Assembly (NCBI RefSeq): GCF_003330725.1
Contig: NZ_CP030840.1
Location: 744,001 to 808,000 of the forward strand
Length of the DNA stretch: 64,000 nucleotides
Direction of reading: 5' to 3'
Origin: Acidisarcina polymorpha
Lineage (GTDB): Bacteria > Acidobacteriota > Terriglobia > Terriglobales > Acidobacteriaceae
The notes under the pieces are model-generated. The model did not search any database and had not been told where the DNA came from. It saw only the letters and a program-made list of their open reading frames with translations. Below are positions 11,185-53,839 of this stretch, in pieces; position 1 is the stretch's first letter, and each line of letters opens with the position of its first letter. A program made the position numbers and the translations under genes.

Positions 11185-11665
11185 TGTCACAATTTGGTGC
11201 TCCGGCTCCTCAACAAGAGGGGCCGAAGTACTCCCTGATGGCTGCGAGTGCCTTGAATACTCGGAAGGTTCGTCCTATGAGGGCGGAGAGCGGCATCCTG
11301 CCGACCGCACAGAGCGAATGCTGAATCCCGGGATTCTTGCAGACCTATGGACACGGGACAGCCGCATTGAGCACGCGGTCTGCTTCGTGCGGCGTTCAAA
11401 TGAACGGTAGCAGCAGATGATCTGAAGGCAGACAGATTTGTGTTGGCTGGCTTACAGGACCATAGGATCTGCGAATGTGTGAGATCGTCGTCATCGCCGT
11501 GGCAGTGGCTAATATGCTGCCAGGTGAAGCACAAGATCGCTGGCTCGGTATAGGGCCTGCCCGAAAGAAGTATGGGAACTCGCGGAAGCCGATGCCTGCC
11601 CTCGCAGATCTTATCGATACGGTTTTGACGGGGTCATTTACAGAAGGAACGGTGCGTAACAAGGT
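11185..11665. other. Intergenic stretch upstream of the second SDR
   Basis: About 480 nt with only short, low-quality frames on both strands. It must hold the promoter for the SDR at 11666. No repeat or RNA recognised. Confidence 0.4.
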
Positions 11666-30297: not shown

Positions 30298-31263
30298 ATG
30301 ACAACTTACCCTCCCCAAAAACGCGAGCCGCGGAGAGTCTACATCGTGCTTTCTCCACGTTCGCTATCGTACGCCCGGCTTGGCCTGCAGAGTCTATTGC
30401 TACACTGTCTCGATCTCCTTGAAGTAACGCTGATCACCGATACTTTCGAGGATCAAGACTTGCTCGCGCATACCGTGAACGAGTTGAGCAATCCCCGAGC
30501 GCATCGAATCCGGATTGTGGCGAAGGATGAATTAGCCGATCTGGAATCCACTACTTTCGCGCGGTACGCCAACCTCCGCAGCTTTCGACAAGGCCATCCT
30601 TGTTGGCGCAAAATCACGGATCCTCTCTTGCTCAGTCAGCCGGGGGAGGAGATGATCATTCTGGATCCTGATCTTTTCTTTCCGAACCCATTTCGCTTCG
30701 AACCGGGCCGGGCTCAAGGTCTGTCCCTGATGTGGCAACAACCAAACTGCTTGCTACCGCCCGAAGTCGTTCAGTTAGCGATGCGCAGCGGTATTCGGCT
30801 GGCGCGGCATGTCGATATTGGCGTTGCGCACTGGCGAGCTTCCGCTGAACTTGATTGGGTCGACTGGATGCTGGGCAAGTTGGGCGGCCAAGGATTGCCC
30901 CAAGTCATGCATGTAGAGGCAATTGTGTGGGCGGCGATCGCAATGCGAGAGGGCGGCGGCTACCTCGATCCTCGCTACTGGAAATGCTGGCAGAGAACCT
31001 CTACGAAGCGGATTATGCTCAAGCTAGGATTCAGTGGAAAACGGTTGTTGGCTGCGGAGCCATGGACAAGTCTCAAATGCTTCCATGCTGGTGGTGAGGC
31101 AAAATGGTGGTTACCCGCCATGGAGCGCAACTCGTCGATGCCGGAGCAAACCGAAGTGGGCATGACTCGCCCGTTCATTGAGCTAACCGCCGAGCGGTAT
31201 GCTCGAGAGGAGGCGATCAAACGCTTTGTGCGCCGCGTCGATCGTTTTCAAATATTACGTTGA
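30298..31263 (+). CDS. Putative glycosyltransferase-like protein (DxD type)
   Basis: 321 aa. The motif EEMIILDPDLFFPNPF (about 118-133) supplies a DPD that resembles the DxD metal/nucleotide-sugar site of GT-A enzymes, and a conserved VDIGVAHWRAS segment follows. Otherwise no family is certain. Weak ribosome site at the ATG at 30298; the C-terminus overlaps the convergent hybrid kinase by 16 nt. Its place at the edge of the EPS locus supports a sugar-transfer role, which is inference. Confidence 0.6.
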   Translation: MTTYPPQKREPRRVYIVLSPRSLSYARLGLQSLLLHCLDLLEVTLITDTFEDQDLLAHTVNELSNPRAHRIRIVAKDELADLESTTFARYANLRSFRQGHPCWRKITDPLLLSQPGEEMIILDPDLFFPNPFRFEPGRAQGLSLMWQQPNCLLPPEVVQLAMRSGIRLARHVDIGVAHWRASAELDWVDWMLGKLGGQGLPQVMHVEAIVWAAIAMREGGGYLDPRYWKCWQRTSTKRIMLKLGFSGKRLLAAEPWTSLKCFHAGGEAKWWLPAMERNSSMPEQTEVGMTRPFIELTAERYAREEAIKRFVRRVDRFQILR

Positions 31264-34200
31264 AGTTCGGGAGAAGTGTCTGCGGCATCCGGATGTAATA
31301 GAAACGAAAGCTTCTCACCGAGCGCCTTCTGGTCGATTGGTTTCGTGAGGTAATCGTCCATCCCCGCATCGAGGCAGCGCTGCCGTTCACCTACCAGGGC
31401 ATTGGCCGTGATGGCAATGATAAAGACTTTTCGTTGGCCTCCCTCGATTTGACGAATAATCTTGGTTGCATCGAAGCCATCCATCTCCGGCATTTGGCAG
31501 TCTAGCAAGACTGCGTCGTAGGTAAATCTCCGAAACGCGTCCACTGCCTCTCGACCGTTTCCCGCGACATCTACCTGGTAGCCCAACCGGGTTAGCATCA
31601 AGACACCAACTTTTTGGTTCACTGGGTTGTCTTCGGCTAAAAGCACCCTGCACCCCGGGTCTGCCGGTGGGTGTACCACCGAAGTCGCCGCCTGGCGGGG
31701 AGAAGCCGGCTCTAGCTCCTTAGGCCTGGAATGAAGCAGTGAGCGGACTGTCCCCATAACTTGCGAGGTTCTAAGCGGCTTGACCAGATAACCTTGAATG
31801 TTAAGGTCCTTAGCCTTTTCCACATGATCGCGCTGAGTAACAGACGTGAGCAACACGATAGGTAGATCCTTAAAACCTGGTTGTGCTCGTATCGCGCGGG
31901 TCAGCATGAGGCCGTCCATGCGAGGCATCTGGAAGTCTAGCAAAGCCAAATCAATTGGCTTTCCATTCGTCTCCGAATCGAGAAGAGCACTCAGGGCTTC
32001 GACTCCGTCCCGGGCATAGACGACGTCGACACCAACGGACTCCAACAAGTGCTGGATGATTCTCAAATTTGTGGCATTATCATCCGCTACCAAGATGCGA
32101 ATGCCGTCGAGCCGGTTGTTTTCAAACGAACAGGGAGGCTGCGCTGTCGGCTCGAGGGCAACCGTAAACCAAAACTTCGAGCCAACCCCTTCTTCGCTTT
32201 CCAGGCCGATCTGACCGCCCATCAACTCGACGAGTTGTTTCGAGATGGCCAGACCAAGTCCGGTACCGCCAAAACGGCGTGTCGTAGAAGCATCTGCCTG
32301 GCTGAATGCGGAGAACATTCGCGCGCATACTTCGGGAGTCATGCCGATCCCGGTGTCGACGACAGAAAAATGAACTACAGGCTTCGATGATGTGGAATTG
32401 AGCCTGTTCACTGACACTACGATTTCGCCTTGCTGGGTAAACTTGACGGCATTGCTGAGCAGGTTCAATAGGATCTGCCGCAGCCGCCCACTATCCCCGT
32501 GGACCCAGGTTGGTATGTGTTGATCAATACTCCACGCCAGCTCGACCCCTTTACGATCTGCTTTTTCTGCTAGAAGATCGAGTGATTCTTCGATCATCGA
32601 TGCAAGATCGAAATCGTTCTCGTCAAGCTCCATGTGGCCTGCCTCGATCTTTGAGAAGTCCAAAATGTCGTTGATGACCGCAAGCAGAGCATTACCGCTG
32701 GAGTGGATGGTTTGGAGATAGTCCCTCTGTTCCGTTGTCAGCTCGGTCTCAAAGAGAATGCTCGTCATTCCTATCACCCCGTTGAGAGGAGTTCGAATCT
32801 CATGGCTCATCGTAGCCAGAAAGCTGCTCTTGGCCTCGGCCGCAGACTCCGCTTTATCCCGGGCGTCGGCGAGCTCAAGCGTCTGCAACCGTAACGCCAG
32901 TTCTGCCTCTTTTCGTTCGGTAATGTCGGTGTGCGAACCGACCATACGCACCGGCTTACCCGCACTATCCCACTGCGCGACACCGCGGGCGAAGACCCAC
33001 CGGTAAGATCCATTCCTCGCGCACAGCCGATATTCCTGCCCGTAAGTGGGCCGCTTATGGCTCAGATAGTCGGCGAGGTGCTGCCGTACTCGAGCCGCAT
33101 CGTCAGGGTGTAGAAGATGTTCCCAACTCGGAATCTCCCCAGTGTCGTCTTCACCGTACCCCAGAATTTCCCGCCAGCGTGGAGAATGAAAAGTGTCTCC
33201 GGTATGAGCATCCCAATCCCAGAGCCCGTCATTATTGGCAGCTAGGACAAGCTGCCAACGATCTTCATCGCGACGAAGACGTTCTTCCATCGCACGGTTC
33301 TTGGAGACATCGCGAATAATGCCTAAGAGCTCTTTGGCCGCGCCATGTTGATCTCGCGAGAAGATCGTCTCCCGGCAACTTAGGAGACGATAGCTGCCAT
33401 CTAGATCGCGGACGCGAAATTCGAGCTCCAGAAACTCGCTGTCTCGAGCACTCTCGAAACGATGGCGGTGATCGCGAAGGGACACGAGATCCTCCGGATG
33501 CACGATCTCCTCTACTGGATCGTTGAGCTGGCGCACGTAGTCAGGGTCCTGCCCAGTGACCTTCATGTAGGAACGATTTGCGAACACCGAACGTTCACTC
33601 TTGAGATCAAAGATATAGATCAGGTCGGGCACGGCCTCAATCAGCTTTCGGTTGAACGATCGCTCCCGCTCACGCTCAGCTTCGGCCGCTTTTCGAAGGG
33701 AGATATCCTCCGCCCAGCCTTCGTAGTACGCAACGGCACCGTCTTCCCGGCGTACCACTCGAGTAGTCTCACAAATCTGGACTGCACGGCCATTTTGCGC
33801 ATACCATACATTTTCATAGGTGGTGATATTAAGTTGCGACTCTAGATCGCCCCGCCAGCGATCCCGCCCTTCGACTAGTCCGTCTAGTTCAAGATTCACG
33901 GACTTCAGAGCATCCATTGACGAGTAATCGAGGATCTTGAGAATCGCCGGGTTCGCCATAAGGACCTCACCCGCTGGCGAGGTGCGATAGATGCCGATCG
34001 GGCAGTTCTCGAATAGATCGCGGTAATCGGCCTCGCTCGAGCGGAGCTGCATAGTTTTGCGACGCAGCTCAAGTTGATCGATGATCAGCCCGGCAAGATC
34101 CTGAAGGTGCTTTGCCTCTGCGCTGCTAAACGTGAATCGGGGGACGTGATCGATGATCGCCAGGACCCCAATGATCAATCCGTCTGGCGCGATAAGCGGC

Positions 34201-34556
34201 GCTCCGGCATAAAAGCAAAACTCTCCACTTTTCGTGAGTACATCAGAATCACGAAAACGTGGATCCGCCTTCGCATCCTCTACGATCAGTACCTCTTGAG
34301 AGAGGATCGCCCACGCCGAGAAGGATTCTTCGCGTGGAGTTTCGTCTGCTGAGCCTCCAACGCGCGATTTGAACCACACCCGATCGCCAGCCACAATGGA
34401 GATAAGCGCGATCGGCGCACAGAAAAGACTAGCCGCTAATCGGGTGATCCGATCGAACGATTCCTCCTCTGCAGTATCGAGGATGTTATAGCGTTCGACT
34501 GCCTCGAGTCGCTCAGCTTCGTTCGCGGGTGTAGGCGGGAGCATATGCATTCTCAT
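31248..34556 (-). CDS. Hybrid sensor histidine kinase with GAF, PAS repeats and two receiver domains
   Basis: 1102 aa from the ATG at 34556, whose ATGA overlaps the HPt stop; an upstream TTG at 34565 is less likely. Order: GAF (about 20-150, RYNILDTAEEESFDRITRLA), three PAS domains (about 175-560), HisKA with phospho-His in SHEIRTPLNG (about 585), HATPase (690-805; DTGIGM, FGGTGLGLAIS), and receivers with LLDFQMPRMDG (about 874) and LLDCQMPEMDG (about 1017). No membrane helix is visible, so it senses a cytoplasmic or diffusible signal. It is translationally coupled to the HPt and lies beside the EPS genes, so it probably controls them. Confidence 0.93.
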   Translation of the reverse strand: MRMHMLPPTPANEAERLEAVERYNILDTAEEESFDRITRLAASLFCAPIALISIVAGDRVWFKSRVGGSADETPREESFSAWAILSQEVLIVEDAKADPRFRDSDVLTKSGEFCFYAGAPLIAPDGLIIGVLAIIDHVPRFTFSSAEAKHLQDLAGLIIDQLELRRKTMQLRSSEADYRDLFENCPIGIYRTSPAGEVLMANPAILKILDYSSMDALKSVNLELDGLVEGRDRWRGDLESQLNITTYENVWYAQNGRAVQICETTRVVRREDGAVAYYEGWAEDISLRKAAEAERERERSFNRKLIEAVPDLIYIFDLKSERSVFANRSYMKVTGQDPDYVRQLNDPVEEIVHPEDLVSLRDHRHRFESARDSEFLELEFRVRDLDGSYRLLSCRETIFSRDQHGAAKELLGIIRDVSKNRAMEERLRRDEDRWQLVLAANNDGLWDWDAHTGDTFHSPRWREILGYGEDDTGEIPSWEHLLHPDDAARVRQHLADYLSHKRPTYGQEYRLCARNGSYRWVFARGVAQWDSAGKPVRMVGSHTDITERKEAELALRLQTLELADARDKAESAAEAKSSFLATMSHEIRTPLNGVIGMTSILFETELTTEQRDYLQTIHSSGNALLAVINDILDFSKIEAGHMELDENDFDLASMIEESLDLLAEKADRKGVELAWSIDQHIPTWVHGDSGRLRQILLNLLSNAVKFTQQGEIVVSVNRLNSTSSKPVVHFSVVDTGIGMTPEVCARMFSAFSQADASTTRRFGGTGLGLAISKQLVELMGGQIGLESEEGVGSKFWFTVALEPTAQPPCSFENNRLDGIRILVADDNATNLRIIQHLLESVGVDVVYARDGVEALSALLDSETNGKPIDLALLDFQMPRMDGLMLTRAIRAQPGFKDLPIVLLTSVTQRDHVEKAKDLNIQGYLVKPLRTSQVMGTVRSLLHSRPKELEPASPRQAATSVVHPPADPGCRVLLAEDNPVNQKVGVLMLTRLGYQVDVAGNGREAVDAFRRFTYDAVLLDCQMPEMDGFDATKIIRQIEGGQRKVFIIAITANALVGERQRCLDAGMDDYLTKPIDQKALGEKLSFLLHPDAADTSPELQRNI

Positions 34557-34951
34557 TCGGCGCAATGACGGTCTTCCAACGCGATTATCATGCTCTCCAT
34601 CTCCAGCCGGAGGGTCGTAAACGCGACTTCTAAGCCTGGAAAAGATTTGTCAACACCCGCCATGCCCCGGGCCCTAAAACATTCCTCCGCTGCCTCCAAC
34701 ATGTTCCCCAAAGTCAATCCACCTATTTGTCGGGAGCTTCCCTTGAGAGCGTGTAAGGCCATGCTAATCGTGTGCATATCATTTGATGCTGCTGCTTCCT
34801 TGAGCCGGTGGAGATTGACTGCGGTGTCTTCTAGATACATCTGAAGTAAACCCGATATCAGCCGTGGCTCGACAACGAAGAGATCTTGCAGGTAATCAGG
34901 GATGCACCATGCAATATTGGACCGAGAGAGATCACTCCCGCTATCGCTCAA
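34553..34951 (-). CDS. Histidine phosphotransfer (HPt) protein
   Basis: 132 aa. A four-helix HPt bundle with the phospho-accepting histidine in ALHALKGSSRQIGG (His67), the standard HxLKG motif. It overlaps the hybrid kinase start by 4 nt and the stop of the protein upstream by 11 nt. It should relay phosphate from the kinase's receiver to a response regulator. The best candidate partner in the window is the receiver protein at 38129, which opens the EPS operon. Confidence 0.88.
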   Translation of the reverse strand: MSDSGSDLSRSNIAWCIPDYLQDLFVVEPRLISGLLQMYLEDTAVNLHRLKEAAASNDMHTISMALHALKGSSRQIGGLTLGNMLEAAEECFRARGMAGVDKSFPGLEVAFTTLRLEMESMIIALEDRHCAE

Positions 34952-36446
34952 CGACGTTCTCCAAAGCAGATTCGTGGGTCAAAGAATTGACATCGTCAAC
35001 TTCGAGCTCGGAGACGCCAAACGCGAGTAACCTTCGCAGATAAAGGCGAAGTAACTTCAGATCGTGGCGTACGCTTCCGACCGCCGCGTAGTAGGCATCG
35101 GCCGAGTGGAGCTCATCTTCGGTTGGTGTTTTGCCGAACATTACGGATGCCTCAGTAATGAGGCCAGCTTTCGAATCCAGGTAAAGCGATCTCCAATCGC
35201 TCGGCAGTCTTTCCACTTCGCGGCGGGAGCGTGGCTTCAGGCCAACCAAAAAAAGGTCGCCCTTCACAACCGAGAGTAATCCTAACCATACCTCGGCAAC
35301 GAATTGGGTCCACCAGTCGGAGGCAGGATCGCACAGACGGATGCTGAGATATCGATACTCCTTCCACAGGCGCCGATCATCCTCGGCAGGAATTTTTATT
35401 GCGTGCTCTCGTACAAACTTGCCCCTGCCGCTTACTAGGAGAATAAGGAGCGTAACCACGGCAAGAGGAAAGAGCAAGATTAAGCAAGCCGCCGCTCCGG
35501 CCTTGGATAGGAGGTGGTGTAGCCACAGCTTCTTCTTCTTTTGCTTTAGCCCTGAGATCAGGAAGCTGTCGGATATAAGCAACGTGGTATCCAGCTTGGT
35601 ATTTACGAGTCGATTGCCATTGATGATCAGATGATCAAGCTCGAGTCCCTGGCCGATGTATGTGCCCGGGGCGACTAGAGTGTGGGAGACGGAGGAACGT
35701 TCGTCAACAATGCAGGCATCGCCGAGAACCGCGGAGGGACCGATATGGGCACCCATTCCGATCTTGCAGTTCGAGCCGACGTAGACGGGAGGTTCAAGGA
35801 TTGCTGAGGGATGAACGGAAGCATTACGAGCGATCCAGATGCCCGGTTTTGTTTGCGGGCTGTCGATCCCGGACGCACGAAATGCCCCGGTCAGGAGATC
35901 GTGCTGGCTTTCCAGCAATCGTGTCCCAGTACGAAAATCTAATTCTCGCGAGACGACAACCTCTTTGAAAGTGGCGCCAGGCCTCTTCGATTTATCTTCG
36001 GTCTGGGATACAAGTGCTGCGAACAAGCGCGAGGACTTCGGCAGAACGGCCCACCCTGTCCAGGCGCCGCCTTCCGTGAGGAAGATCGTGGGCGCCGCTG
36101 GAGACGGAAGTTGAATTTGGGGAAGCGTGTCTCCTCTTGCTAATATGATTTCATCGTCCAGACCTGAAGCAATTAATTCAACCAAGCTCATTGTCTTCGA
36201 CGTCGACGGGAGAAGATGAAATCCAAATGTGAGCCCCCAGCGGGTGCCGTCACCCAGGTAGGCTTCGATCTTCTCAGGTAAATGGCCGAGGACGAATTCA
36301 CAACGCCGAATGCCAAGGCTCTTAAGATAGTCGACTACGTGATGCAGGATGGGTCGATCACCCAGTAGGAATAATGGAAGAGGGATGTGGTCATCCAGGT
36401 GAGTAGTCTCTGCGCTGTGGTCCGCCGCGACGATAATAGCAATCAT
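34941..36446 (-). CDS. Nucleotidyltransferase-like / left-handed beta-helix / sugar-transferase-like fusion
   Basis: 501 aa from the ATG at 36446, overlapping the upstream stop (ATGA). The N-terminus (about 1-190) has the NTP-transferase layout (LGDRPILHHVVDYLKSLGIR), but the signature GGxGTRL is replaced by AADHSAETT. The centre (about 205-290) is a left-handed beta-helix (NASVHPSAILEPPVYVGSN). The C-terminus, after a membrane helix (about 320-342), resembles the bacterial sugar-transferase end (VVKGDLFLVGLKPRSRREVE), without the Asp-Glu dyad. Probably a non-catalytic or remodelled EPS protein, possibly a scaffold for the neighbouring GT26 fusion. Domain losses are seen; the role is inference. 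Confidence 0.7.
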   Translation of the reverse strand: MIAIIVAADHSAETTHLDDHIPLPLFLLGDRPILHHVVDYLKSLGIRRCEFVLGHLPEKIEAYLGDGTRWGLTFGFHLLPSTSKTMSLVELIASGLDDEIILARGDTLPQIQLPSPAAPTIFLTEGGAWTGWAVLPKSSRLFAALVSQTEDKSKRPGATFKEVVVSRELDFRTGTRLLESQHDLLTGAFRASGIDSPQTKPGIWIARNASVHPSAILEPPVYVGSNCKIGMGAHIGPSAVLGDACIVDERSSVSHTLVAPGTYIGQGLELDHLIINGNRLVNTKLDTTLLISDSFLISGLKQKKKKLWLHHLLSKAGAAACLILLFPLAVVTLLILLVSGRGKFVREHAIKIPAEDDRRLWKEYRYLSIRLCDPASDWWTQFVAEVWLGLLSVVKGDLFLVGLKPRSRREVERLPSDWRSLYLDSKAGLITEASVMFGKTPTEDELHSADAYYAAVGSVRHDLKLLRLYLRRLLAFGVSELEVDDVNSLTHESALENVVER

Positions 36447-37813
36447 GGCAGGTTGCCGGTCTCGCACCGCTCACGCACAACCCGGGCGAGGAAGACGACA
36501 TTGCCGACGAAATAGCGACGCCACATGCGGCGCGGCTCCTGTACAAAACGGTAGCACCATTCCATTCCGATCTCTCGTATCCATGCCGCCGCCCTTGGAA
36601 CGCGGCCGGAGTAGAAATCGAAGAGGCCACCAACACCCATCGACACCACAGCGCCGGTCTCTTCGAGATGCCTGCTGATCCATAGCTCCTGCCTCGGCAC
36701 GCCGAAGGCCACCAATAGGATTTTGGCGCCAGATCGCCTTACTTCGGCAAGAATCTCTGGCATCTCTTGCGCGAGAAAGTAGCCGTGGTGATGGCCACTT
36801 ACTGACAAGCCGGGGTAGTTGGTTGCCATCCATTGCGCAACGTCGGCGGCGATTCCAGGTCTACCTCCGAGCAGGTACACTCCTAACTGTTCGGCCCGGA
36901 GAACTTCGCAGAGCCGAGGCAACAGATCGGTGCCGTTGACATTTTGCCGGATATTTCGGTTTAGCAGCTTTCCCGCAAGTTTCATTCCAATTCCGTCTGC
37001 CAGCACTAGATCGGACTTCTTCAGCACCGCTCCGTACTCAGCATCATCCCAGGCTATATTCGCGCAGTCAGCATTCACGAAGCAGACCTGGGAGCAGACT
37101 GAACCGCGAGCTCTTATAACGATCTCTTCAATTGCCTCGTCCATCGTCACGTTATGTATGGTGATGCCGAGCAGGTCGACTCGATCCGGGGCCAGTGTAA
37201 CGCCTTGCCCATATAATGCGGCCGGGATCGCACGAAGGGCGATTCCGAGATCACCGAGGAAGCTTTGGCTGTCAACATATTCAGCGTCCGCATCTACTTC
37301 GCTGCCATACGCGATGTTGGCTCTTGACCGGATCCACCACAGGCACAAGAATCCCGGTCTTGTATTCAACCGCTTCCAAGCCAGCCGCTCGGCAGAGGAG
37401 ACATCGGTAGGGGCGACAGGACGCGGCCCCACCAAGGACATATCACCCTTCCACACGTTTACCAGCGTTGGAAGCTGCCGTAATACTCCTACGGAGAAGG
37501 AATACTCTTGGAAGACCGCACCCCAACGCCCGAGTCGCGGCGATCGCACCACGCCTCCCCTTCTTAGCAAATTGAAGCAATAAAGCGAGACAAAAAGAGG
37601 GGAGCACGCAAGCAGCAGCATACTCGAGATAGCAAAATCGAAGGATCTTTTTCCCCCATTGAGGATATTGACCCAAGCCAGCCAGAACAGTGATTGCGAG
37701 CGCCTGAAGCGGCGCTGGCGAAGGCCTGACGGGGAGAATTGCCGCTCCATCTCCTCAATGAGGACAGCCTTGTTGCGCAGGTCCTGTTCCGGGTCAGTCT
37801 TGATCGCCGGCAT
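36443..37813 (-). CDS. Degenerate sugar transferase fused to a GT26 (WecG/TagA) glycosyltransferase
   Basis: 456 aa, ATG at 37813, AAGGAG upstream. The N-terminal half (about 50-200) resembles PF02397 initiating sugar transferases: a membrane re-entrant helix (FDFAISSMLLLACSPLFVSL) and KGDMSLVGPRPV. The segment that should read SLDELPQLWNV is VLRQLPTLVNV, so the catalytic Asp-Glu pair is Arg-Gln, and the stretch before it is shortened. The C-terminal half (about 215-450) is a full GT26 domain: LGITIHNVTMDEAIEEI, VNADCANIAW, LVLADGIGM, VYLLGGRPG, FGVPRQELWI. Such enzymes add the second sugar to a lipid-linked primer. First gene of the divergent unit. Confidence 0.82.
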   Translation of the reverse strand: MPAIKTDPEQDLRNKAVLIEEMERQFSPSGLRQRRFRRSQSLFWLAWVNILNGGKRSFDFAISSMLLLACSPLFVSLYCFNLLRRGGVVRSPRLGRWGAVFQEYSFSVGVLRQLPTLVNVWKGDMSLVGPRPVAPTDVSSAERLAWKRLNTRPGFLCLWWIRSRANIAYGSEVDADAEYVDSQSFLGDLGIALRAIPAALYGQGVTLAPDRVDLLGITIHNVTMDEAIEEIVIRARGSVCSQVCFVNADCANIAWDDAEYGAVLKKSDLVLADGIGMKLAGKLLNRNIRQNVNGTDLLPRLCEVLRAEQLGVYLLGGRPGIAADVAQWMATNYPGLSVSGHHHGYFLAQEMPEILAEVRRSGAKILLVAFGVPRQELWISRHLEETGAVVSMGVGGLFDFYSGRVPRAAAWIREIGMEWCYRFVQEPRRMWRRYFVGNVVFLARVVRERCETGNLP

Positions 37814-38128
37814 TCGGCACTCAACTCCTTGGACATGGCAACAAGGACCGGCGGATAGCTACCGACTCTTATCCATAGGTTTGCCTGAGGAACAGCCTAT
37901 TTGTGCATTAGTGCAGACTTATTGAATATCATTTGTATGCTGCAGTCGATGTTATTTCCTTAATGATATTACCTAAGTAACGGCATACCCAATAAAGACA
38001 ACGAGGCCTCATTGCTATTGCTTCGTTCTCCTCTTTACAGTTCCGACATGCACCGCCAATAAAACCTTCCGGCTGGTGGTTAGCCACAAGCTGCAGCTAT
38101 CTAGGCGTTAGCCGTTATAAGCGGACTG
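37814..38128. promoter_or_regulatory. Divergent control region of the EPS locus
   Basis: About 315 nt between the two outward-reading EPS transcripts, richer in A/T than its surroundings (notably 37920-38000). It must hold the promoters for both units. I cannot point to one convincing -35/-10 pair or a clean palindrome, so only the location is claimed. Confidence 0.5.
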
Positions 38129-38647
38129 GTGGGATCTATCTTCCTGCTTGTTTTGCAGATTGGAAGGTTTCAGTTGCCAGCAATTCCGGAACCAGAGCGT
38201 TCCCAAGATCACCCGAGTGCTCTGGCTCCTCCCCCGATCGGGAGTGTGCCGTCGGTGCAGACCGCGAAAATCCTGGTGGTGGAAGATGAACGCCACATCG
38301 CTCGGTTGTTAGAGTTTGTACTGCAAAAAGCGGGCTACGATCTGTCCATTTGTCACTCGGCGGAACGAGCCCTGATCGAATTAGAGAAAGGCCATCCAGA
38401 CGCGATCGTGCTCGACCTGATTCTCCCCGGAATGTCGGGGCTTGAATTTTTAAGGTTGATCCGGGCCCCTCCTCGGTGTTGTGCCAGTGCCGTGATTGTG
38501 CTGAGTAGTCACTGGCTCGAACAGGGGGGCGCAAGTCTGGCAGAGTCCGGAGCAACTGCTCGATGTACCAAGCCGATTGCTCCCAGCAGCCTTTTAAGAA
38601 AGCTGAAAGAGTTGGGTATTCATCCATCGAAGCCTCTGGAAACGTGA
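38129..38647 (+). CDS. Single-domain response regulator (receiver) protein
   Basis: Up to 172 aa; the start is uncertain (GTG at 38129, or a TTG at about 38174 preceded by GGAAGG). The receiver domain begins at KILVVEDERHIARLLEFVLQ and has the phospho-acceptor Asp in IVLDLILPGMSG and the Lys in CTKPI. No output domain, so it works by protein contact, as expected at the end of a His-Asp relay. It ends in a TGATG overlap with the PP2C phosphatase, which suggests it controls that phosphatase. Confidence 0.85.
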   Translation: MGSIFLLVLQIGRFQLPAIPEPERSQDHPSALAPPPIGSVPSVQTAKILVVEDERHIARLLEFVLQKAGYDLSICHSAERALIELEKGHPDAIVLDLILPGMSGLEFLRLIRAPPRCCASAVIVLSSHWLEQGGASLAESGATARCTKPIAPSSLLRKLKELGIHPSKPLET

Positions 38648-40716
38648 TGATCACTGCCGGTGCTATACCTAGCCAGGCTGCCTGCCGCTCCAAAGAGAAG
38701 CTGGCTCGCCAGATTCGTCTCGCTGTCGCCTCGGTTGGTGTGCTCCGAGGGATCTACGTTTATATCCAGCTACCGGATGGCGGTCTGCCGTTTGTGGTCC
38801 TCGACGATGGCGATTATGAGTATGCCGATAACTTGCAATTGATGCCACGATCGGCTGAAGAAGGTAGCATGTCTTCGTTTGTCTCGGAGGACGGCATTCG
38901 GATCGTCGTGCGTAGCGAGAGGGGTGATCCCACCATCCTCAAGCTAGTTAGCGCTCTTTTGCAAGGGTCCATTCAGGCGCACGAGGCGCGGGCAAGGGAA
39001 GAGCTCTTATTAGAAGAGCTCGGCGCCAATTGGGAGAGTCTTGAAGCTCTTTATGAAATCAGCACTGATGCATTGCGTTTCGGCGACATCAACGAAGCCC
39101 TCAAGCGCCTGCTCGATCGATTTGCCGCGATTCAGAATGGTCTTCACTCCGCACTCTTCATTCAGCGAGAAGGTGTATTTCACCCTCTGGTCGGCACTGA
39201 CTCGGATTTAAATGTGTTGACCGCATCGCAGTTAGGCCCGATAGAGAACGCAATATGCACTATGAACATCGTTCTTCTTAATCATCTTACTCAACCTGTG
39301 GATGAGCAAGCCTGCTGGCGGAATGCAAACAGTCTGGCTGCTGCTCCCTTTTCCTGGCCCGGCAGCGTCGGCTTCGTCGTGGTGTGGAACGAAGAGCGGA
39401 ATGCAGTGTTTGACTCCTCCGTGTCACGCGTTCTCGAAGCGATCACCTACCAAGCGTCCGTGATGATGCAGAGCGACCGACTAAGTCGCAAACTGCGAGA
39501 TAGCGAACTGCTGGCACAAGAGATTGAGATCGCCTCTTCCATCCAACAAACACTACTCCTCGCCAATGCACCAAAGGATGTACCGGCTCTCGAGATTGCC
39601 GCCTGCAGCGTTCCATCACAACAGATCGACGGAGATTTTCACGATTTCTTCCAGCATCCAAATGGAACCATTGATGTGCTTGTCGGCGACGTGATGGGGA
39701 AGGGAGTAGCTGCAGCGCTGCTGGGAGCGGCTACGAAGAGCCAGTTCCTTCGTGCCACGGCGAATCTCGCCCTGCGCTTGAGCCACGGCGCCCCCAGTCC
39801 CGCAGATATTGTAAGCCGCGCGGCGTCACGTCTTTCCGACCGGTTGATTGCCCTTGAGCGATTCGTAACCCTCGTCTACGCTCGCTTCGATATGGAAACC
39901 CGTACTCTAATGTTCGTGGATTGTGGCCACACGAGCATCATTCGCGAGAGCAAGAGAGAGAACGAATGCGCCTTCCTCCGGGGAGATGACCTTCCTCTGG
40001 GCGTGCTTCCGAATCATCGATGTGAGCAGCAGACGGTTGGATTCCTGCCCGGGGAAACCTACCTATTTTATTCGGATGGGGTCACCGAAGGCCGCTCGCC
40101 GGAGGGAGAGATGTTTGGACCTGAACGACTCGCCGAATGTGTTCAGAACTGGAGTTCGCTCGGACCTGCTCTCTTAGTTGAACAGATTCGCAAGCAGGTC
40201 ACTCAGTTTACTCAGTCCGAAAAGCTTCTCGATGATTTTACGTGCATAGCTATCCGGGTCAAGCTTCTGGACCAGAAAGTTCAACCGATCGCATGTCGAT
40301 CTGCCGTTCTTGAGTGCGCGCCGCAATCACTTTCGACCGTTCGCGCATGGCTGAGTGAATGCGCTGATTCGGCGTACAGTGGGCTTCTGGAGGAGGACAT
40401 TGCGAGACTTCTGCTTGCCTGCTCGGAGGTCTTTGCGAATTGCATACTCCATGCTTCCAGTTCTCCTGGTACCAACCCGGTGTCTCTGCGAGCAATTATT
40501 TACGACAACCAGGTGTCAGTCGAGATAAGCCAAGACGGACCCATATTCAACCCTCTCACAGTCCCCCCACCTTCATTTGACGGTTCCAAGGAGAGTGGGT
40601 TCGGAGTCTACATCGTTCTCCGCTCCTCAGATGCCGCTTCTTTTACCCGGACCCTCGATAGAACAAACGTAATAACGCTATGCTTTCTCAGTAGCAGGAC
40701 GGAGCAGAGCTCATGA
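38647..40716 (+). CDS. PP2C (SpoIIE/RsbU-like) phosphatase with C-terminal RsbW-like ATPase domain
   Basis: About 689 aa from the ATG at 38647, which shares a base with the receiver gene's stop. Order: N-terminal segment, a GAF-like region (about 120-290), a linker helix (ELLAQEIEIASSIQQTLL), and a PP2C domain (about 310-540) with metal-binding VGDVMGKG, YSDGVTEG and DDFTCIAI. The usual GGDYYD is DGDFHD. The C-terminal HATPase (about 550-680) has an N box, EVFANCILHASS, and GFGVYIV. It thus carries both a phosphatase and an anti-sigma-type kinase fold in one chain, which should dephosphorylate and phosphorylate the STAS protein encoded next. Confidence 0.9.
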   Translation: MITAGAIPSQAACRSKEKLARQIRLAVASVGVLRGIYVYIQLPDGGLPFVVLDDGDYEYADNLQLMPRSAEEGSMSSFVSEDGIRIVVRSERGDPTILKLVSALLQGSIQAHEARAREELLLEELGANWESLEALYEISTDALRFGDINEALKRLLDRFAAIQNGLHSALFIQREGVFHPLVGTDSDLNVLTASQLGPIENAICTMNIVLLNHLTQPVDEQACWRNANSLAAAPFSWPGSVGFVVVWNEERNAVFDSSVSRVLEAITYQASVMMQSDRLSRKLRDSELLAQEIEIASSIQQTLLLANAPKDVPALEIAACSVPSQQIDGDFHDFFQHPNGTIDVLVGDVMGKGVAAALLGAATKSQFLRATANLALRLSHGAPSPADIVSRAASRLSDRLIALERFVTLVYARFDMETRTLMFVDCGHTSIIRESKRENECAFLRGDDLPLGVLPNHRCEQQTVGFLPGETYLFYSDGVTEGRSPEGEMFGPERLAECVQNWSSLGPALLVEQIRKQVTQFTQSEKLLDDFTCIAIRVKLLDQKVQPIACRSAVLECAPQSLSTVRAWLSECADSAYSGLLEEDIARLLLACSEVFANCILHASSSPGTNPVSLRAIIYDNQVSVEISQDGPIFNPLTVPPPSFDGSKESGFGVYIVLRSSDAASFTRTLDRTNVITLCFLSSRTEQSS

Positions 40717-41072
40717 ATATCGATATTGAGAACTTAGACGGCATAATCATCGCTCACCTGCGAGCCGAAGCTCTCGACGCCAGCAACGCAAAAGAGTTTA
40801 AGACGAAGGCAGCAGCCTTAATCATTCCGGGCACGACACTGATCTTCAACCTGGGCAGCTTACAGTTCGTTGATAGCTCGGGACTGGGAGCCCTCCTATC
40901 TTGTCTTCGCCAGCTGAACGCCTCAGGCGGAGCCTTGAAATTATGTGGATTGGTAAAGCCCGTCAGAGCGCTCTTCGAATTAGTGCGCATGCATCGGGTC
41001 TTCGAGATATTCAACACCCAGGAAGAGGCGATTCGTTCCTACCGTAAGGATGTCGTGACCTTAGTCGATTAG
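40713..41072 (+). CDS. STAS-domain anti-sigma-factor antagonist
   Basis: 119 aa, start overlapping the phosphatase stop (ATGA). The STAS signature FVDSSGLGALLS (residues 52-63) contains the serine that RsbW/SpoIIAB-type kinases phosphorylate. The likely output of the relay: kinase, HPt, receiver, phosphatase/kinase, STAS. No sigma factor is encoded nearby, so the final target may be a sigma factor elsewhere or an EPS enzyme. It is followed after 21 nt by the first glycosyltransferase gene. Confidence 0.9.
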   Translation: MNIDIENLDGIIIAHLRAEALDASNAKEFKTKAAALIIPGTTLIFNLGSLQFVDSSGLGALLSCLRQLNASGGALKLCGLVKPVRALFELVRMHRVFEIFNTQEEAIRSYRKDVVTLVD

Positions 41073-41093: not shown

Positions 41094-42356
41094 ATGAGGG
41101 GAAAGCTGGGTTATCTGATCAGCCGTTATCCTGCGATCTCTCACACGTTCATCTTGCGGGAGGTGCTGGAACTGCGTCGTCTGGGCTACCACATCGAGGT
41201 TGCCTCTATCAACCAACCTGACCAGCCTAGAAGCGGGCTCACGCTTGAAGAACGAGCGGAGGCTGATTCGACGTTCTACGTGAAGTCCAGTGGAGCCCGG
41301 GGAGCGTTGCAGGCCCAGGCTTCGGAGCTGGCGCACAATCCCTTAGCCTATATGAGGGGTTTCATTTTCGCAGCAGCCCTTGGCGGAACTGACCCGCGCA
41401 GGGCGATCATGAGTATCCTGTATTTCGTTGAAGCAGTTTTAATTGTTCAATGGATGAGGGCTCGCGGCCTCAAACATTTGCACGTACACTTCGCCACGCC
41501 CGCCGCGACCGTCGGCTTAATCGTGGCAAAGGTCTCTCGTTTTACATTTTCACTGACGATCCATGGTCCCGATGAGTTCTACGACACTCCCGGATATCTC
41601 CTGCCAGAGAAGATTGCTACGGCTAACCTGCTTTGTGTCATTGGAATGTTCGCGCGAAGTCAGGTGATGAGGCTTTGTGAATCCTCGCTATGGGACAAGA
41701 TAGAACTAACACCGCTAGGCGTGGATGCCAGGCTCTTTCGGCCGACGGGCTTGGCGAAAACTGCCAAGATCTTCGAGATACTTTGCGTGGGGAGGCTGGT
41801 TCCAGCGAAGGGACAGCATGTGCTGCTGGCGGCTGTTGCGCGACTGCGCTCGAGCGGGCGCGCGGTCCTGCTGCGCCTGGTTGGCGATGGGCCGGACCGT
41901 AGTTCGCTCGAAGCATCCACGCGACTTCTTCGGATCGAAGATTCCGTCATCTTTGAGGGACCGGTGAACCAGGATCGGATTCGCGACCTCTATGCAACAG
42001 CAGATGTGTTTGTTCTAGCGAGCTTTGCCGAAGGCATCCCAGTGGTCCTGATGGAAGCGATGGCCATGGAAATTCCTTGCGTCTCGACCTGGGTGAATGG
42101 CATTCCGGAACTGATACGCGATTCGATCGATGGACTACTGGTCTCTCCTTCCGACGCTGATGCTCTGGCTGCGGCCATCGCCCGGCTGATGGACGATGGT
42201 GATTTGCGCAACCAGCTTGCGAAGGCGGGGCGTTTGCGTGTCATCGACAAGTACGACCTAACCGAAAATGTTGCTCACCTGGCAGAAGTCTTCGACGCTT
42301 ACCTTTGTGAAGAGGCAACGTCAGCACCCGACCACGCAAGATCGGTGCTCGCATGA
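41094..42356 (+). CDS. GT4-family glycosyltransferase
   Basis: 420 aa. GT-B fold: the N-terminal domain contains GYLISRYPAISHTFILREVL, which recalls colanic-acid type GT4 enzymes (WcaL-like), and the C-terminal domain has ILCVGRLVPAKGQHVLLAAV and the E-x7-E motif in FAEGIPVVLMEAMAMEIPCV. It transfers a sugar to the growing repeat unit on the cytoplasmic face. The stop overlaps the next start by 4 nt. Confidence 0.9.
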   Translation: MRGKLGYLISRYPAISHTFILREVLELRRLGYHIEVASINQPDQPRSGLTLEERAEADSTFYVKSSGARGALQAQASELAHNPLAYMRGFIFAAALGGTDPRRAIMSILYFVEAVLIVQWMRARGLKHLHVHFATPAATVGLIVAKVSRFTFSLTIHGPDEFYDTPGYLLPEKIATANLLCVIGMFARSQVMRLCESSLWDKIELTPLGVDARLFRPTGLAKTAKIFEILCVGRLVPAKGQHVLLAAVARLRSSGRAVLLRLVGDGPDRSSLEASTRLLRIEDSVIFEGPVNQDRIRDLYATADVFVLASFAEGIPVVLMEAMAMEIPCVSTWVNGIPELIRDSIDGLLVSPSDADALAAAIARLMDDGDLRNQLAKAGRLRVIDKYDLTENVAHLAEVFDAYLCEEATSAPDHARSVLA

Positions 42357-43537
42357 TTCGCTACCTATTCCTCCTTGTCGGGAGCTGCTGTGCCCTGATC
42401 ACTCTTCCAGGAACCATCGAGCTGTTTGTTTTGACGATCGCAGGCATGCTTCCGCGACGACGCACAATCCTTGTGCCCGGCAGTAACTACCGGTTGGCGG
42501 TGATAGTGCCGGCTCATAATGAGGAGCTGCACATCGCTCGCTGCATTGAGAGTCTGACTCGAGCAGATCGGAGCGGCATTGACGCGTCGTTCACCGTAAT
42601 TGCGGATAACTGCGACGACAGCACGGCCGCGACAGCGAGCCGCTCCGGTGCTCGCGTGATCGTCCGTGAGAATCCCCTCGATCGGGGCAAGGGCTATGCG
42701 CTCGATTATGCTTTTCGAACCATGGCGTCGGAGGGATGGAATGCCTTTGCAGTCGTTGATGCCGACAGCGAAGTCGCTCCTAACTTCATGACCGTCTTAG
42801 TCTCGGCCTTACGGACTGGAGCGTCCGCCGTACAGTGCAGATATGTCGTGCGGAACGCACACGAGTCAAGCCGGGTTCGGCTGATGAAGGTTGCCAATGC
42901 GGCCTTCAACGTTCTCCGACCGAGAGGCAGAGAGAGATGCGGCCTCTCTGCAGGCATCTATGGAAACGGCTTCGCGCTCTCGGCAGACACCTTGAGCGCC
43001 GTTCCTTACCTTGCTAGCTCCTTGGTGGAAGACCTCGAATACCACCTGGCTCTCGTCGACGCCGGGAAACGCGTACGCTTTTTAGATACTACTTCGGTAT
43101 ACGGCGATATGCCGGCCGCTGGCGCCGGCGTGAAGACCCAACGGACTAGATGGGAAGGCGGCCGTTTCCGAATGATCCGGGAAAAAACTCCACGCCTCAT
43201 CCGGCGAATCTTCCGCGGGCGATTTGACGTTCTCGAACCTTGCCTGGATCTGCTCCTTTTCCCTCTTGCCTTTCATGTCGCGCTGTTATTGATCGCAGCT
43301 GCGACCCCGTTCTGGCCGATGAGAGCGCTCGCTCTTGCCGGCTTAGCGACCGTCGTCATGCACTTAGCTGCGGCCATCGCCGTTACTGGAGGAGGCTGGC
43401 AGGACGTCGCTGCTCTTCTCGGCGCGCCGTTTTACATTGTATGGAAGATACTGCTGATTCCACGGCTGGCAAGGTCTGCCAATGCCAAGAGCGCATGGAC
43501 GCGAACCGAGCGGACTGCAGAGAGGAAGATTCTGTGA
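42353..43537 (+). CDS. Membrane-anchored GT2 glycosyltransferase
   Basis: 394 aa. N-terminal membrane helix, then a GT-A domain (VIVPAHNEELHIARCIESLT, VVDADSEV with the DxD, and a QTQRTRWEGGR-like segment: TQRTRWEGGRFR), and two or three C-terminal helices (from about 290). This resembles processive or membrane GT2 enzymes. Part of the EPS operon, with 4-nt overlaps at both ends. Confidence 0.88.
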   Translation: MIRYLFLLVGSCCALITLPGTIELFVLTIAGMLPRRRTILVPGSNYRLAVIVPAHNEELHIARCIESLTRADRSGIDASFTVIADNCDDSTAATASRSGARVIVRENPLDRGKGYALDYAFRTMASEGWNAFAVVDADSEVAPNFMTVLVSALRTGASAVQCRYVVRNAHESSRVRLMKVANAAFNVLRPRGRERCGLSAGIYGNGFALSADTLSAVPYLASSLVEDLEYHLALVDAGKRVRFLDTTSVYGDMPAAGAGVKTQRTRWEGGRFRMIREKTPRLIRRIFRGRFDVLEPCLDLLLFPLAFHVALLLIAAATPFWPMRALALAGLATVVMHLAAAIAVTGGGWQDVAALLGAPFYIVWKILLIPRLARSANAKSAWTRTERTAERKIL

Positions 43538-44514
43538 TCCCGGATATCTCCGTCGTCGTGGTTTCTTTCAATACCCGCGAGCTGCTGCGCGATTGTTTAC
43601 TCACGCTGCGGAAGGAAGTCGAAGGGCTTGCCAATGAGGTGTTCGTCGTCGATAACGTCTCCCGGGACGGCTCGGCTGAGATGGTCGCGGCGGAGTTTCC
43701 CGAGGCCCGCTTGATTCGTAGCAACGTCAATCTAGGGTTCGCTGCCGCTAACAACAAGGCCTTCAGCTTGGCCACAGGACGCTACATCGTTCTGCTCAAT
43801 TCGGATGCCTTTCTCCGGCCGATGGCGCTCCAAAGATCGATCGAATACATGGATGCGCAGCCGCGCATCGGTCTTGGCGGCGCTCGATTGGTTGGCGCGG
43901 ATGGCTCGTGGCAGCCATCGAGACGCTTGTTCCCGTCGCCCTTGAACGATTTCCTCTCGCTCTCCGGACTGGCGGCCAAGTTCCCGCGCTCGCGTTTCTT
44001 CGGCCGCCAGGACCATACCTGGGCGGACCAGGACCAACCGGGAGACGCCGACTGGGTTCCAGGGGCCTATTCCATCATTCGGCGAACCGTTCTTGACCAG
44101 GTTGGTCACTTTGATGAACAGTTTTTCCTCTATTACGAAGAAGTGGACTTATGCCGCCGAATCAAGCAGGCCGGCTTTTTGATTCGCTACTGGCCGGATG
44201 TCGTCGTAGTTCATCTGGGCGGCGAGTCTTCAAAGACTTTGACGAATCTAAGTATGTCGAAATCAGGCGCCCAGCTTGAGCTTTGGCGAATGCGCAGTGC
44301 GTTTCTCTACTACCGGAAACACCATGGCCCGGTTGCATGGTTGTCAAAGACGATTGAAGCCCAATGGCACGGTCTTCGCTCCTGGAAAAATTCGCTGACT
44401 CCGGGTTCTGTGCACAAGACCAAGGCAGAAGAGTCAAGGCTTGTCATCCAGCTCCTACGCCGCGCCTGGCAAGAGACCGCCGGTGGCGCGGTATCTCCCA
44501 CGAGGCCTTGGTAA
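43534..44514 (+). CDS. GT2 glycosyltransferase (rhamnosyltransferase-like)
   Basis: 326 aa. I use the GTG at 43534, which overlaps the preceding stop and has AGGAAG upstream; the open frame extends further upstream through the preceding gene but is not coding there. ISVVVVSFNTRELLRDCLLT, LLNSDAFL (metal site), and GAYSIIRRTVLDQVGHFDEQ with YYEEVDLCRRIKQAG are the hallmarks of WbbL-type rhamnosyltransferases. Adds a sugar to the EPS repeat unit; donor not provable. Confidence 0.88.
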   Translation: MIPDISVVVVSFNTRELLRDCLLTLRKEVEGLANEVFVVDNVSRDGSAEMVAAEFPEARLIRSNVNLGFAAANNKAFSLATGRYIVLLNSDAFLRPMALQRSIEYMDAQPRIGLGGARLVGADGSWQPSRRLFPSPLNDFLSLSGLAAKFPRSRFFGRQDHTWADQDQPGDADWVPGAYSIIRRTVLDQVGHFDEQFFLYYEEVDLCRRIKQAGFLIRYWPDVVVVHLGGESSKTLTNLSMSKSGAQLELWRMRSAFLYYRKHHGPVAWLSKTIEAQWHGLRSWKNSLTPGSVHKTKAEESRLVIQLLRRAWQETAGGAVSPTRPW

Positions 44515-44520
44515 ACGGAT

Positions 44521-45522
44521 ATGCCACGAAAGCTCAGCCTCGCTGCCAAGATCGGATTGCTATCCATCGCCAGTTGCCGCATAACCATGTTAGCCATGGC
44601 ACAAGAGGGGAGCGCCGGCTTTACCGTCCGCGCAGACCAAAAGATCGTCACTGCCGACGAGATCGTGCGGCAATTCGAAGCGCCGCTGCTAACCTCTTAC
44701 ATCCTCGGCGATGGTGATGAAATCTCCGTGGATGTCTGGAACCACCCGGAGCTTTCTGGAAAACATGTGATCGGTCCGGACGGCAAGATTACGGTACCGA
44801 TCGCAGGAATAGTCAAGGTTTCAGAGCTTAGCCGGGAAGATGCGCAGGCGGCTATTGCAAACTCCCTCATCCACTACTACTCCGACCTTTCTATTACCTT
44901 GCGAGTGGACCGCTATACCTCCTATCGCATTTACATCCTGGGGCGGGCAGGTGTACCTGGAATCGTGCAGTTTGATTCTCAGCCGACGCTTCTGGATGTC
45001 GTCACCCGGGCGTCGGCGATCACCTCGGGAGGTGTAGGACCCGACAGCGCCGGGCTGGGACGATGCGCCATCTTGCGCGGCCGCGATCAGGTGATTTGGG
45101 TTGATCTGAAAAGCCTATTAAGCCAGGGTAGCTTGGCGTTGAACATCCGCCTGGCCCGAAATGACATGGTTTATCTTCCCGACGCCGGAGAGCGAGAGGT
45201 CTATGTTCTTGGCGAGGTCAAACATCCAGGCGCATTCCGCCTGACCCCGACTATGTCCTTCCTGGACGCCTTCAGTCAGGCGGGCGGGGCCACCGAGGAC
45301 GCGTCGGAGAACAAGATCGAAATTGTGCGGAGTGCGTCCGGCACACAGCGCGAGTTTCGCATGAGCGACCTGCTGAGCGGCCCCGAGCACTTGAATTTCG
45401 CGCTCGAAGAGGGCGACATCATTTACGTTCCCCGGCGCAACCTTGCCAAATTCGGATATGTTCTCCAGAAAACCAGCTCTCTTGCTGCATTTGCCGTACT
45501 CGGAACACTGGGGGCGAAATAG
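44521..45522 (+). CDS. Outer-membrane polysaccharide export protein (Wza-like)
   Basis: 333 aa. An N-terminal signal (about 1-27, ending AMAQ), then the Poly_export domain (YILGDGDEISVDVWNHPELS; GPDGKITVPIAGIVKV) and SLBB repeats (YRIYILGRAGVPGIVQF; VYVLGEVKHPGAFRL). No lipobox cysteine is seen. It would form the outer-membrane channel for the EPS, paired with the Wzc-like protein encoded 2 nt downstream. Confidence 0.92.
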   Translation: MPRKLSLAAKIGLLSIASCRITMLAMAQEGSAGFTVRADQKIVTADEIVRQFEAPLLTSYILGDGDEISVDVWNHPELSGKHVIGPDGKITVPIAGIVKVSELSREDAQAAIANSLIHYYSDLSITLRVDRYTSYRIYILGRAGVPGIVQFDSQPTLLDVVTRASAITSGGVGPDSAGLGRCAILRGRDQVIWVDLKSLLSQGSLALNIRLARNDMVYLPDAGEREVYVLGEVKHPGAFRLTPTMSFLDAFSQAGGATEDASENKIEIVRSASGTQREFRMSDLLSGPEHLNFALEEGDIIYVPRRNLAKFGYVLQKTSSLAAFAVLGTLGAK

Positions 45523-45524
45523 CC

Positions 45525-47690: not shown

Positions 47691-47693
47691 TCA

Positions 47694-51608: not shown

Positions 51609-51624
51609 AGACAGGAGGCCGGTC

Positions 51625-53702: not shown

Positions 53703-53839
53703 CGGCATCCAAGTGGTTGCCTGCCATGCAACTGCCCGCCGTAAAAGCCCGCCACCATCGCGGTACTAAAGATAGAATTACCTTCGCGCTGATCTCTGAA
53801 AGTCGGGCCAGAGTGTGTGGCCTCATGTACCTTGGACGC

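Follow-up and report, generated by a model that had tools for sequence, protein, structure and literature searches.

Conserved phosphoglycosyl transferase-fold proteins without the catalytic dyad, usually beside an intact enzyme and often beside a partner switch, suggest a regulated initiation complex for exopolysaccharide

Introduction

The phosphoglycosyl transferases (PGTs) that initiate sugar polymers draw on limited undecaprenyl phosphate shared among pathways, and how cells gate them is a live question (PMC12802240). In Myxococcus xanthus the single-domain receiver EpsW acts post-translationally on EpsZ, the initiating PGT of an exopolysaccharide; EpsZ is a large PGT with an intact catalytic domain and a DUF, and receiver and PGT orthologs co-occur in 9 of 15 cases (PMC12802240). 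In WbaP and other large monotopic PGTs, a non-catalytic domain of the same chain senses nucleotides and helps hold the dimer (PMC10942596). In the partner switches SypE-SypA of Vibrio fischeri and HmpU/V/W of Nostoc, a STAS protein set by a phosphatase/kinase controls biofilm or polysaccharide (PMC8256260, PMC10120452). SypA is placed below transcription in PMC10120452, while PMC8256260 words its output as transcription of biofilm genes; both state its target as unknown. The GT26 enzymes TagA and WecG work at the membrane (PMC6493773), and GMPPA, which has a regulatory role, GMPPB and eIF2B epsilon combine a nucleotidyltransferase-like domain with a left-handed beta helix.

Here we examine a locus of the soil bacterium Acidisarcina polymorpha in which two adjacent genes encode PGT-fold proteins without the catalytic Asp-Glu dyad. 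An initial annotation, made from the sequence alone, had proposed that the two form a hetero-complex acting as a scaffold or allosteric subunit for exopolysaccharide initiation, tied to a phosphorelay. In literature searches confined to open-licence papers, where absence is weak evidence, PGTs paired with pseudoenzymes or with STAS domains returned nothing, while the related topics (PGT fusions, sequence similarity networks and inactive paralogs, SypA and HmpV STAS proteins, TagA/GT26, acidobacterial SpoIIE) did return papers.

Results

Organization of the locus

The window (the whole 64,000-nt stretch analysed, contig NZ_CP030840.1, positions 744,001 to 808,000) contains the following features, the two dyad-less proteins being termed B and C:

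31248..34565 (-), hybrid histidine kinase (GAF, PAS, HisKA, HATPase_c, two receivers), overlapping the HPt gene
34553..34951 (-), HPt domain protein (PF01627, 40.7 bits), overlapping the end of C
34941..36446 (-), C, 501 aa: nucleotidyltransferase-like domain without GGxGTRL, left-handed beta helix and dyad-less PGT end
36443..37813 (-), B, 456 aa: N-terminal helical extension, dyad-less PGT domain (residues ~50-206) and GT26 (WecG/TagA/CpsF) domain (~210-450)
37814..38128, intergenic stretch between B and the receiver gene
38129..38647 (+), single-domain response regulator (PF00072, 67.6 bits), divergent from B
38563..40716 (+), SpoIIE-type phosphatase (PF07228, 133.2 bits) with HATPase_c_2 (kinase-like) domain (PF13581, 57.2 bits)
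40713..41072 (+), single-domain STAS protein with the DSSG motif
41094..56428 (+), exopolysaccharide cluster: GT4, two GT2, Wza-like SLBB/Poly_export, Wzc-like (weak), GT2, GT4, unknown 547 aa, GT25-like, Wzy_C, fn3 protein

B and C overlap by ATGA (36443-36446), C and HPt by 11 bp, and HPt and the hybrid kinase by 13 bp, although the TTG starts of the latter two are uncertain; the mechanical ORF of C starts at a GTG 21 bases upstream of the ATG used here. A promoter and terminator scan of 37700-38700 gave no promoter-like site (0.7 expected) and two terminator-like sites (0.8 expected), and was not used further.

Domain make-up of B and C

The observation in the initial annotation, that both proteins resemble initiating sugar transferases yet lack the dyad, is confirmed. 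In profile searches B has a complete PF03808 (GT26) domain (1-168 of 168, 204.6 bits) and scores 81.2 bits against PF02397 over the whole protein, the best stretch covering only profile positions 89-177. Its AF2 model (mean pLDDT 86.9) matches TagA (TMt 0.96) and PglC (TMt 0.66). C matches Hexapep (40.2 bits), and PF02397 at 25.1 bits (cut-off 27; best stretch 94-172), or at 28.9 bits with its neighbours in the frame; its nucleotidyltransferase matches in NCBIfam are all far below their cut-offs, the best being 61.7 bits against 292. The GGxGTR signature of sugar-1-phosphate nucleotidyltransferases is absent in 28 of 28 C sequences, as read by eye from the alignment, and structural matches of C to GMPPA/GMPPB and eIF2B epsilon have modest TM-scores (about 0.5 by target length). 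Where active enzymes read D-E, B reads R112-Q113 and C reads E385-V386. As the annotation had also claimed, no intact PF02397 enzyme lies in the window, but the genome has two elsewhere, its only ones, at C1:6375915-6376478 (505 aa) and C1:1635930-1636502 (291 aa; C1 as in our coordinates, not protein C), both with SLDELPQL.

Conservation and a third gene

A search of 40 near relatives gave no full-length B or C, which would have suggested an orphan pair, but a wider phylum sample (297 genomes including the window's own, only the best five candidates per genome scored, cut-offs 1e-36 and 1e-11) found 7 further full-length B and 8 further full-length C. In total we compared the window with 30 further loci holding C (designated by L and a number), from Acidobacteriota and from MAGs labelled Deltaproteobacteria, Hydrogenedentes, Lentisphaerae, Planctomycetota and Ferrovum. 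Window included, 0 of 25 readable B and 0 of 30 readable C have the dyad; among the B sequences, L118 shows only one of the two sites and L134 aligns poorly. A third gene, A, which could not be seen from the window alone, encodes an intact small PGT, with the dyad in 27 of 27; it is present in 27 of the 30 other loci. The loss in B and C is not chance or local decay, since it extends over many lineages while A next to them keeps the dyad.

B is missing from 5 of the 30 other loci (L108, L122, L123, L126 and L136), and in L134 most of its PGT part is gone too, so the pair is not universal. L126 appeared to be a second locus without A, but its genome carries a true A elsewhere; L110 and L118 are cut inside B and cannot be judged for A. 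A 699-aa C ORF in L109 is inferred to be an over-long ORF running into B and not a fusion. No A was found in the window genome, whether at the locus or elsewhere; in L111-L113 and L115 the gene lies in the stretch corresponding to 37814..38128, where neither a match to A nor a decayed copy was found in the window.

Residues kept and lost

Of the PglC residues (PMC12802240), B keeps the equivalents of D11 (21 of 21 readable), P24 (23 of 23), R111 (22 of 23) and D168 (23 of 23), thus retaining the DX12P re-entrant helix, but not those of K59, D93 and E94. At the K59 site (the Lys of the KFRSM motif) K is found in 0 of 22 readable B (S in 11), against 25 of 25 and 27 of 27 A in two readings. B has invariants of its own, W160, R162 and E172 (23 of 23), where A has Q (25 of 27), S (24 of 27) and Q (27 of 27), indicating selection and not drift. 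C keeps the helix features only in part: P in 28 of 28 and the D168 equivalent in 25 of 28, but the first D is Ser in 18 of 28 and D in 2. The GT26 domain of B keeps the equivalents of TagA N39, D65 (the catalytic Asp; D273 is invariant in 23 sequences) and Q167 (PMC6493773), while F and N stand in the places of Thr37 and Arg83.

A, B and C are each one clan in a PGT-domain tree of 104 sequences (support 1.0, 0.998 and 0.999, respectively). The A profile starts at position 51-57 in 22 of 22 control PGTs, but at 26 or earlier in 20 of 26 B, two of the other six being cut by contig ends; A and most B share an N-terminal extension. Tree distances of A, B, C and STAS correlate (r 0.76-0.89 over 16-27 loci, 0 of 2000 permutations each), which shows co-inheritance, not contact.

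Linkage to signalling genes

STAS genes lie nearby in 20 of 31 loci and SpoIIE genes in 17 of 31, each against 0 of 22 control PGT loci (Fisher p for STAS 4e-7, or 2e-4 for the 21 loci not used to train the profile, neither corrected for relatedness). The DSSG motif is present in 20 of 20 STAS. Of the 11 loci where STAS was not found, five (L117, L119, L126, L128 and L135) have 10 kb upstream of C, and the rest are shorter. Hybrid-kinase matches are also more frequent, in 18 of 31 loci against 5 of 22 controls, but less specific. The gene set of a partner switch (STAS with the DSSG serine motif, SpoIIE phosphatase and HATPase kinase-like domain) is found in the window and in a relative. In L104 the order is A-C-SpoIIE-STAS-B on one strand. 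In L111, L112, L113 and L115 a receiver-size gene of one cluster (that of L113 confirmed as PF00072) lies between SpoIIE and A, and in L101, L111 and L113 kinases near C carry an HPt at their own C-terminus.

Discussion

The interpretation in the initial annotation is partly supported. Both proteins are dyad-less PGT-fold proteins, the pair is conserved, and in the window it is linked to a phosphorelay; neither of the outcomes named beforehand as contrary to that reading appeared, i.e. an intact Asp-Glu pair placed elsewhere in either domain or a pair not conserved in related genomes. However, the conserved unit is not a two-protein scaffold alone but a three-gene module whose catalytic member is missing from the window genome, and the strongest regulatory link that we found is to a STAS/SpoIIE partner switch, which the annotation did not mention.

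With moderate confidence, we favor the explanation that B and C are PGT-fold subunits without PGT activity that belong to a regulated exopolysaccharide initiation module, in which A, B and C would form a switchable membrane complex. In relatives, A would be the active small PGT that puts the first sugar-phosphate on undecaprenyl phosphate. B keeps the PGT membrane fold but not its catalysis, and its GT26 domain should add the second sugar, so the dead domain would dock GT26 on A or hold the lipid-linked product. C has no domain with a recognisable active site and would be an oligomeric scaffold or sensor (nucleotidyltransferase-like head, beta helix, PGT-fold membrane end), comparable to the nucleotide-sensing DUF of large PGTs, which A lacks. 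A hybrid kinase-HPt-receiver relay would feed a SpoIIE phosphatase/kinase that sets the phosphorylation of the STAS protein, and STAS (or the receiver) would switch the initiation complex post-translationally. In the window genome another PGT in trans must supply the first step, or the module is running down. Our analysis establishes the domain make-up, the loss of the dyad, the conservation, the gene linkage and the absence of A from the window genome, whereas the complex, including any binding of B and C to each other or to an active PGT, the second-sugar step, the order of signalling, the switching, and any binding of STAS or the receiver to a target are inferred. The absence of B from five loci means that it is not essential to the unit, and since STAS proteins classically control sigma factors, the link could be transcriptional. 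The departures from TagA at Thr37 and Arg83, the lack of A in the window itself and the 11 of 31 loci where STAS was not found also count against this explanation.

It remains possible, though less likely, that the dead PGT domain of B is just a membrane anchor for the GT26 enzyme and C a separate sugar-nucleotide sensor, with no heterocomplex. The helix residues are among those that B keeps, GT26 enzymes work at the membrane, and five of the 30 other loci do without B. But an anchor need not keep R111 (22 of 23) or PG, W159, W160, R162, R164, E172, D176 and Y179 (23 of 23 each), the N-terminal extension shared by A and most B is not matched in the 22 control PGTs, and C, with its own dead PGT end, is inherited with A and B. 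We consider it unlikely that in the window genome B and C are relics of a module that died when A was lost. The lack of A and the long branch of the window's C (1.14) would fit, but both ORFs are intact and overlap, the neighbouring signalling genes are open frames with full domains, the branch of B (0.60) is not longer than several others, and two intact PGTs exist in trans; the columns that we called invariant include the window, though by definition.

Least likely is that B or C is an active PGT using different catalytic residues. C has an acidic residue at the D93 site in 4 of 28 sequences, including E385 in the window, but no acid at the E94 site in 28 of 28; in B one sequence has D at the first site and another has D at the second, none both. 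Alternative catalytic acids were rejected on conservation, K stands at the K59 site in no readable B, and an intact A is present in 27 of 30 other loci.

A more speculative proposal, which we hold only tentatively, is that polysaccharide initiation in these bacteria is carried out by a hetero-oligomeric PGT machine, of one catalytic and two catalytically dead PGT subunits, switched directly by an unphosphorylated STAS protein. The PGT complex would then be the kind of non-transcriptional target that has been missing for SypA- and HmpV-type STAS regulators. A conserved module with one live and two dead PGT subunits plus a STAS/SpoIIE switch would add pseudo-PGTs as a regulatory device, and would give a concrete, testable target for STAS proteins that control polysaccharide below transcription.

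Comparison with known systems

Like EpsW-EpsZ, the module has a linked single-domain receiver gene and a PGT assigned to exopolysaccharide initiation, but for EpsZ, a large PGT, we found no description of dead PGT-fold subunits or of a STAS/SpoIIE switch (PMC12802240). With SypE-SypA and HmpU/V/W it shares a STAS protein and phosphatase/kinase genes, while no dead PGT module was found described for them (PMC8256260, PMC10120452). The GT26 domain of B shares with TagA/WecG the fold, the Asn39, Asp65 and Gln167 equivalents and a matching C-terminal stretch, but it is fused behind a dead PGT domain and differs at Thr37 and Arg83 (PMC6493773). C shares the nucleotidyltransferase-like domain and left-handed beta helix of GMPPA/GMPPB and eIF2B epsilon, but adds a dead PGT membrane end and is bacterial. 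In WbaP and other large monotopic PGTs the nucleotide sensor is part of the same chain as the enzyme (PMC10942596), while here A is small and the candidate sensor and scaffold are separate dead PGT-fold proteins.

Gene content of the locus

On the minus strand, in order of transcription, the locus comprises the two proteins with phosphoglycosyl transferase (PGT) domains lacking the Asp-Glu dyad, B and C, followed by two signalling genes, with successive overlaps of 4, 11 and 13 bp; a second group of genes lies divergently.

36443-37813, minus strand: B, 456 aa
34941-36446, minus strand: C, 501 aa
34553-34951, minus strand: HPt protein
31248-34565, minus strand: hybrid histidine kinase
38129-38647, divergent: single-domain receiver
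38563-40716, divergent: SpoIIE phosphatase with a HATPase_c_2 domain
40713-41072, divergent: STAS protein
to about 56.4 kb, divergent: exopolysaccharide cluster

Of two large proteins of the exopolysaccharide cluster, one of 547 aa (49965-51608) has no Pfam or NCBIfam match at the thresholds used, and the other, of 939 aa (53609-56428), has only an fn3 domain.

Catalytic residues and predicted folds

B has a complete GT26 domain, while its PF02397 match is confined in the main to the second half of that profile. Its AlphaFold2 model (mean pLDDT 86.9) matches TagA (TM 0.96 by target length), PglC (0.66) and WbaP (0.33). The model of C (mean pLDDT 78.2, with the beta-helix part and both linkers lower) matches tlr0611 (8x7s, TM about 0.5), MurU, RmlA and GMPPA/GMPPB by fold, and the C-terminal part of C matches PglC by sequence (E 1e-11). 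In PglC the active site is D93-E94 with K59, R88 and R111, whereas D11, P24 and D168 serve the re-entrant helix (PMC12802240).

By sequence, catalysis is lost while the fold is kept. Alignment of 23 B sequences shows that the D11, P24, R111 and D168 equivalents are kept but K59, D93 and E94 are not: D occurs at the D93 site in 1 of 22 readable sequences and E at the E94 site in 0 of 23, with D at the latter in one other sequence, and never both. A joint alignment of 27 sequences of A (the intact small PGT of related loci, described below) and 23 of B shows the same, and adds the B invariants W160, R162 and E172, where A has Q (25 of 27), S (24 of 27) and Q (27 of 27). In 28 aligned C sequences P24 is invariant and the D168 equivalent is D in 25; the D93 site is acidic in 4, the E94 site in none, the R111 site is R in 3, and the D11 site is mostly Ser. 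The nucleotidyltransferase signature is missing in 28 of 28 C, as read by eye. The GT26 domain of B keeps the equivalents of TagA N39, D65 and Q167 but not Thr37 or Arg83 (PMC6493773), so we infer from sequence that it is probably live, perhaps with another substrate.

An intact PGT in related loci

A phylum sample of 297 genomes, the window's own included, gave 7 further full-length B and 8 further C, and all 7 B genomes also have C on the same contig. A scan of the GTDB species collection with a C profile, by one peptide pattern, gave 28 loci, six of which repeat earlier ones (on contigs of equal size, in one case differing by 100 bases), leaving 30 distinct non-window loci (handles beginning with L; those beginning with G are genomes). 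In 27 of the 30 an intact small PGT, A, is present, with the dyad in 27 of 27; of the other three, two are contigs cut inside B, and the third (L126) has A elsewhere in its genome. B is present in 25 of 30. Because the loci were found through C (and eight through B and C), the presence of C is by design, but A was not used in any search that found them. Many of the loci come from metagenome-assembled genomes with short contigs, so absences are often uninformative. At L108, the locus of genome G074, no B was found, but a lone GT26-like ORF (11181-11957) lies between A and C on the opposite strand. In two closely related loci a 413-aa ORF of unknown kind sits between A and B (L119:7101-8342 and L131:4091-5332). 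Four of eight genomes carry, apart from the module, two weaker PGT-family frames of 433-515 aa close together on opposite strands (114-141 bits; contigs G335:C105, G336:C218, G337:C78 and G338:C1).

The window genome has no A: its two intact PGTs match only from position 54 or 55 of the A profile and sit in other loci, one beside a GT26 gene and epimerases, the other beside an SLBB export gene. The assembly is rated 96.4% complete, so absence is likely but not certain. Near the genome's 291-aa PGT lie HDOD, receiver-GGDEF and receiver-HPt genes (L143:16993-19893), hinting at separate signalling near that PGT locus. In the trees of B and C the window groups with loci L109-L115, in which A is present except where L110 is cut; thus A was most likely lost or moved on the window's lineage. 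The window genome is in one family with G208, G232 and G074, yet its B and C group with L109-L115, as against L105, L106 and L108; two of L109-L115 are labelled Bryobacterales (organism labels here are record titles), so the island may have moved horizontally.

A, B and C form three separate, well-supported clans of PGT domains, and dyad loss is therefore old in both B and C. The A profile also covers an N-terminal extension of about 50 residues in 20 of 26 B but in none of 22 control PGTs; we infer that this could be a pairing element.

Linkage to signalling genes

STAS lies in 20 of 31 loci (window included) and SpoIIE in 17 of 31, two of the latter weak (L106, L108), while in 22 control PGT loci both are 0. 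The controls come from the window genome (two) and its relatives (20), whereas the module loci span more phyla. Several module loci are moreover close relatives of each other (L110/L115, L119/L131, L122/L123 of one genome, L125/L128/L135, L106/L108), so Fisher values on these counts overstate independence. Of 21 loci not used to train the STAS profile, 10 have it, and five loci with 10 kb upstream of C lack STAS (L117, L119, L126, L128, L135). Receiver hits are 13 of 31 against 4 of 22, and hybrid kinase hits 18 of 31 against 5 of 22.

The order in L111, L113 and L115 is STAS, SpoIIE, receiver, then divergently A, B, C and a hybrid kinase, the kinase of L111 carrying an HPt. In L104 it is A, C, SpoIIE, STAS, B on one strand, and in L116, L123 and L136 STAS directly precedes A. 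In L103 (5140-7584) the STAS profile matches inside the SpoIIE open frame, a probable SpoIIE-STAS fusion. All 20 STAS proteins have the DSSG motif. Distances among the A, B, C and STAS trees correlate at r 0.76-0.89 (0 of 2000 permutations each), which shows co-inheritance only.

A possible mechanism

The sequence features, gene order and co-inheritance described here are results of the analysis, whereas interaction among the proteins, their activities and any switching are inferred. In this view A would start the lipid-linked repeat unit, and the GT26 domain of B would add the next sugar while its dead PGT domain docks to A or holds the product. The hybrid kinase, HPt and receiver would steer the SpoIIE protein, which would set STAS phosphorylation, and STAS would switch the complex; PMC8256260 words the output of the STAS protein SypA as gene expression. 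In the window another PGT must act in place of A, or the module is running down. C would be an oligomeric sensor and scaffold. The large PGT WbaP carries a nucleotide-sensing DUF (PMC10942596) that A lacks, and C could play that part.
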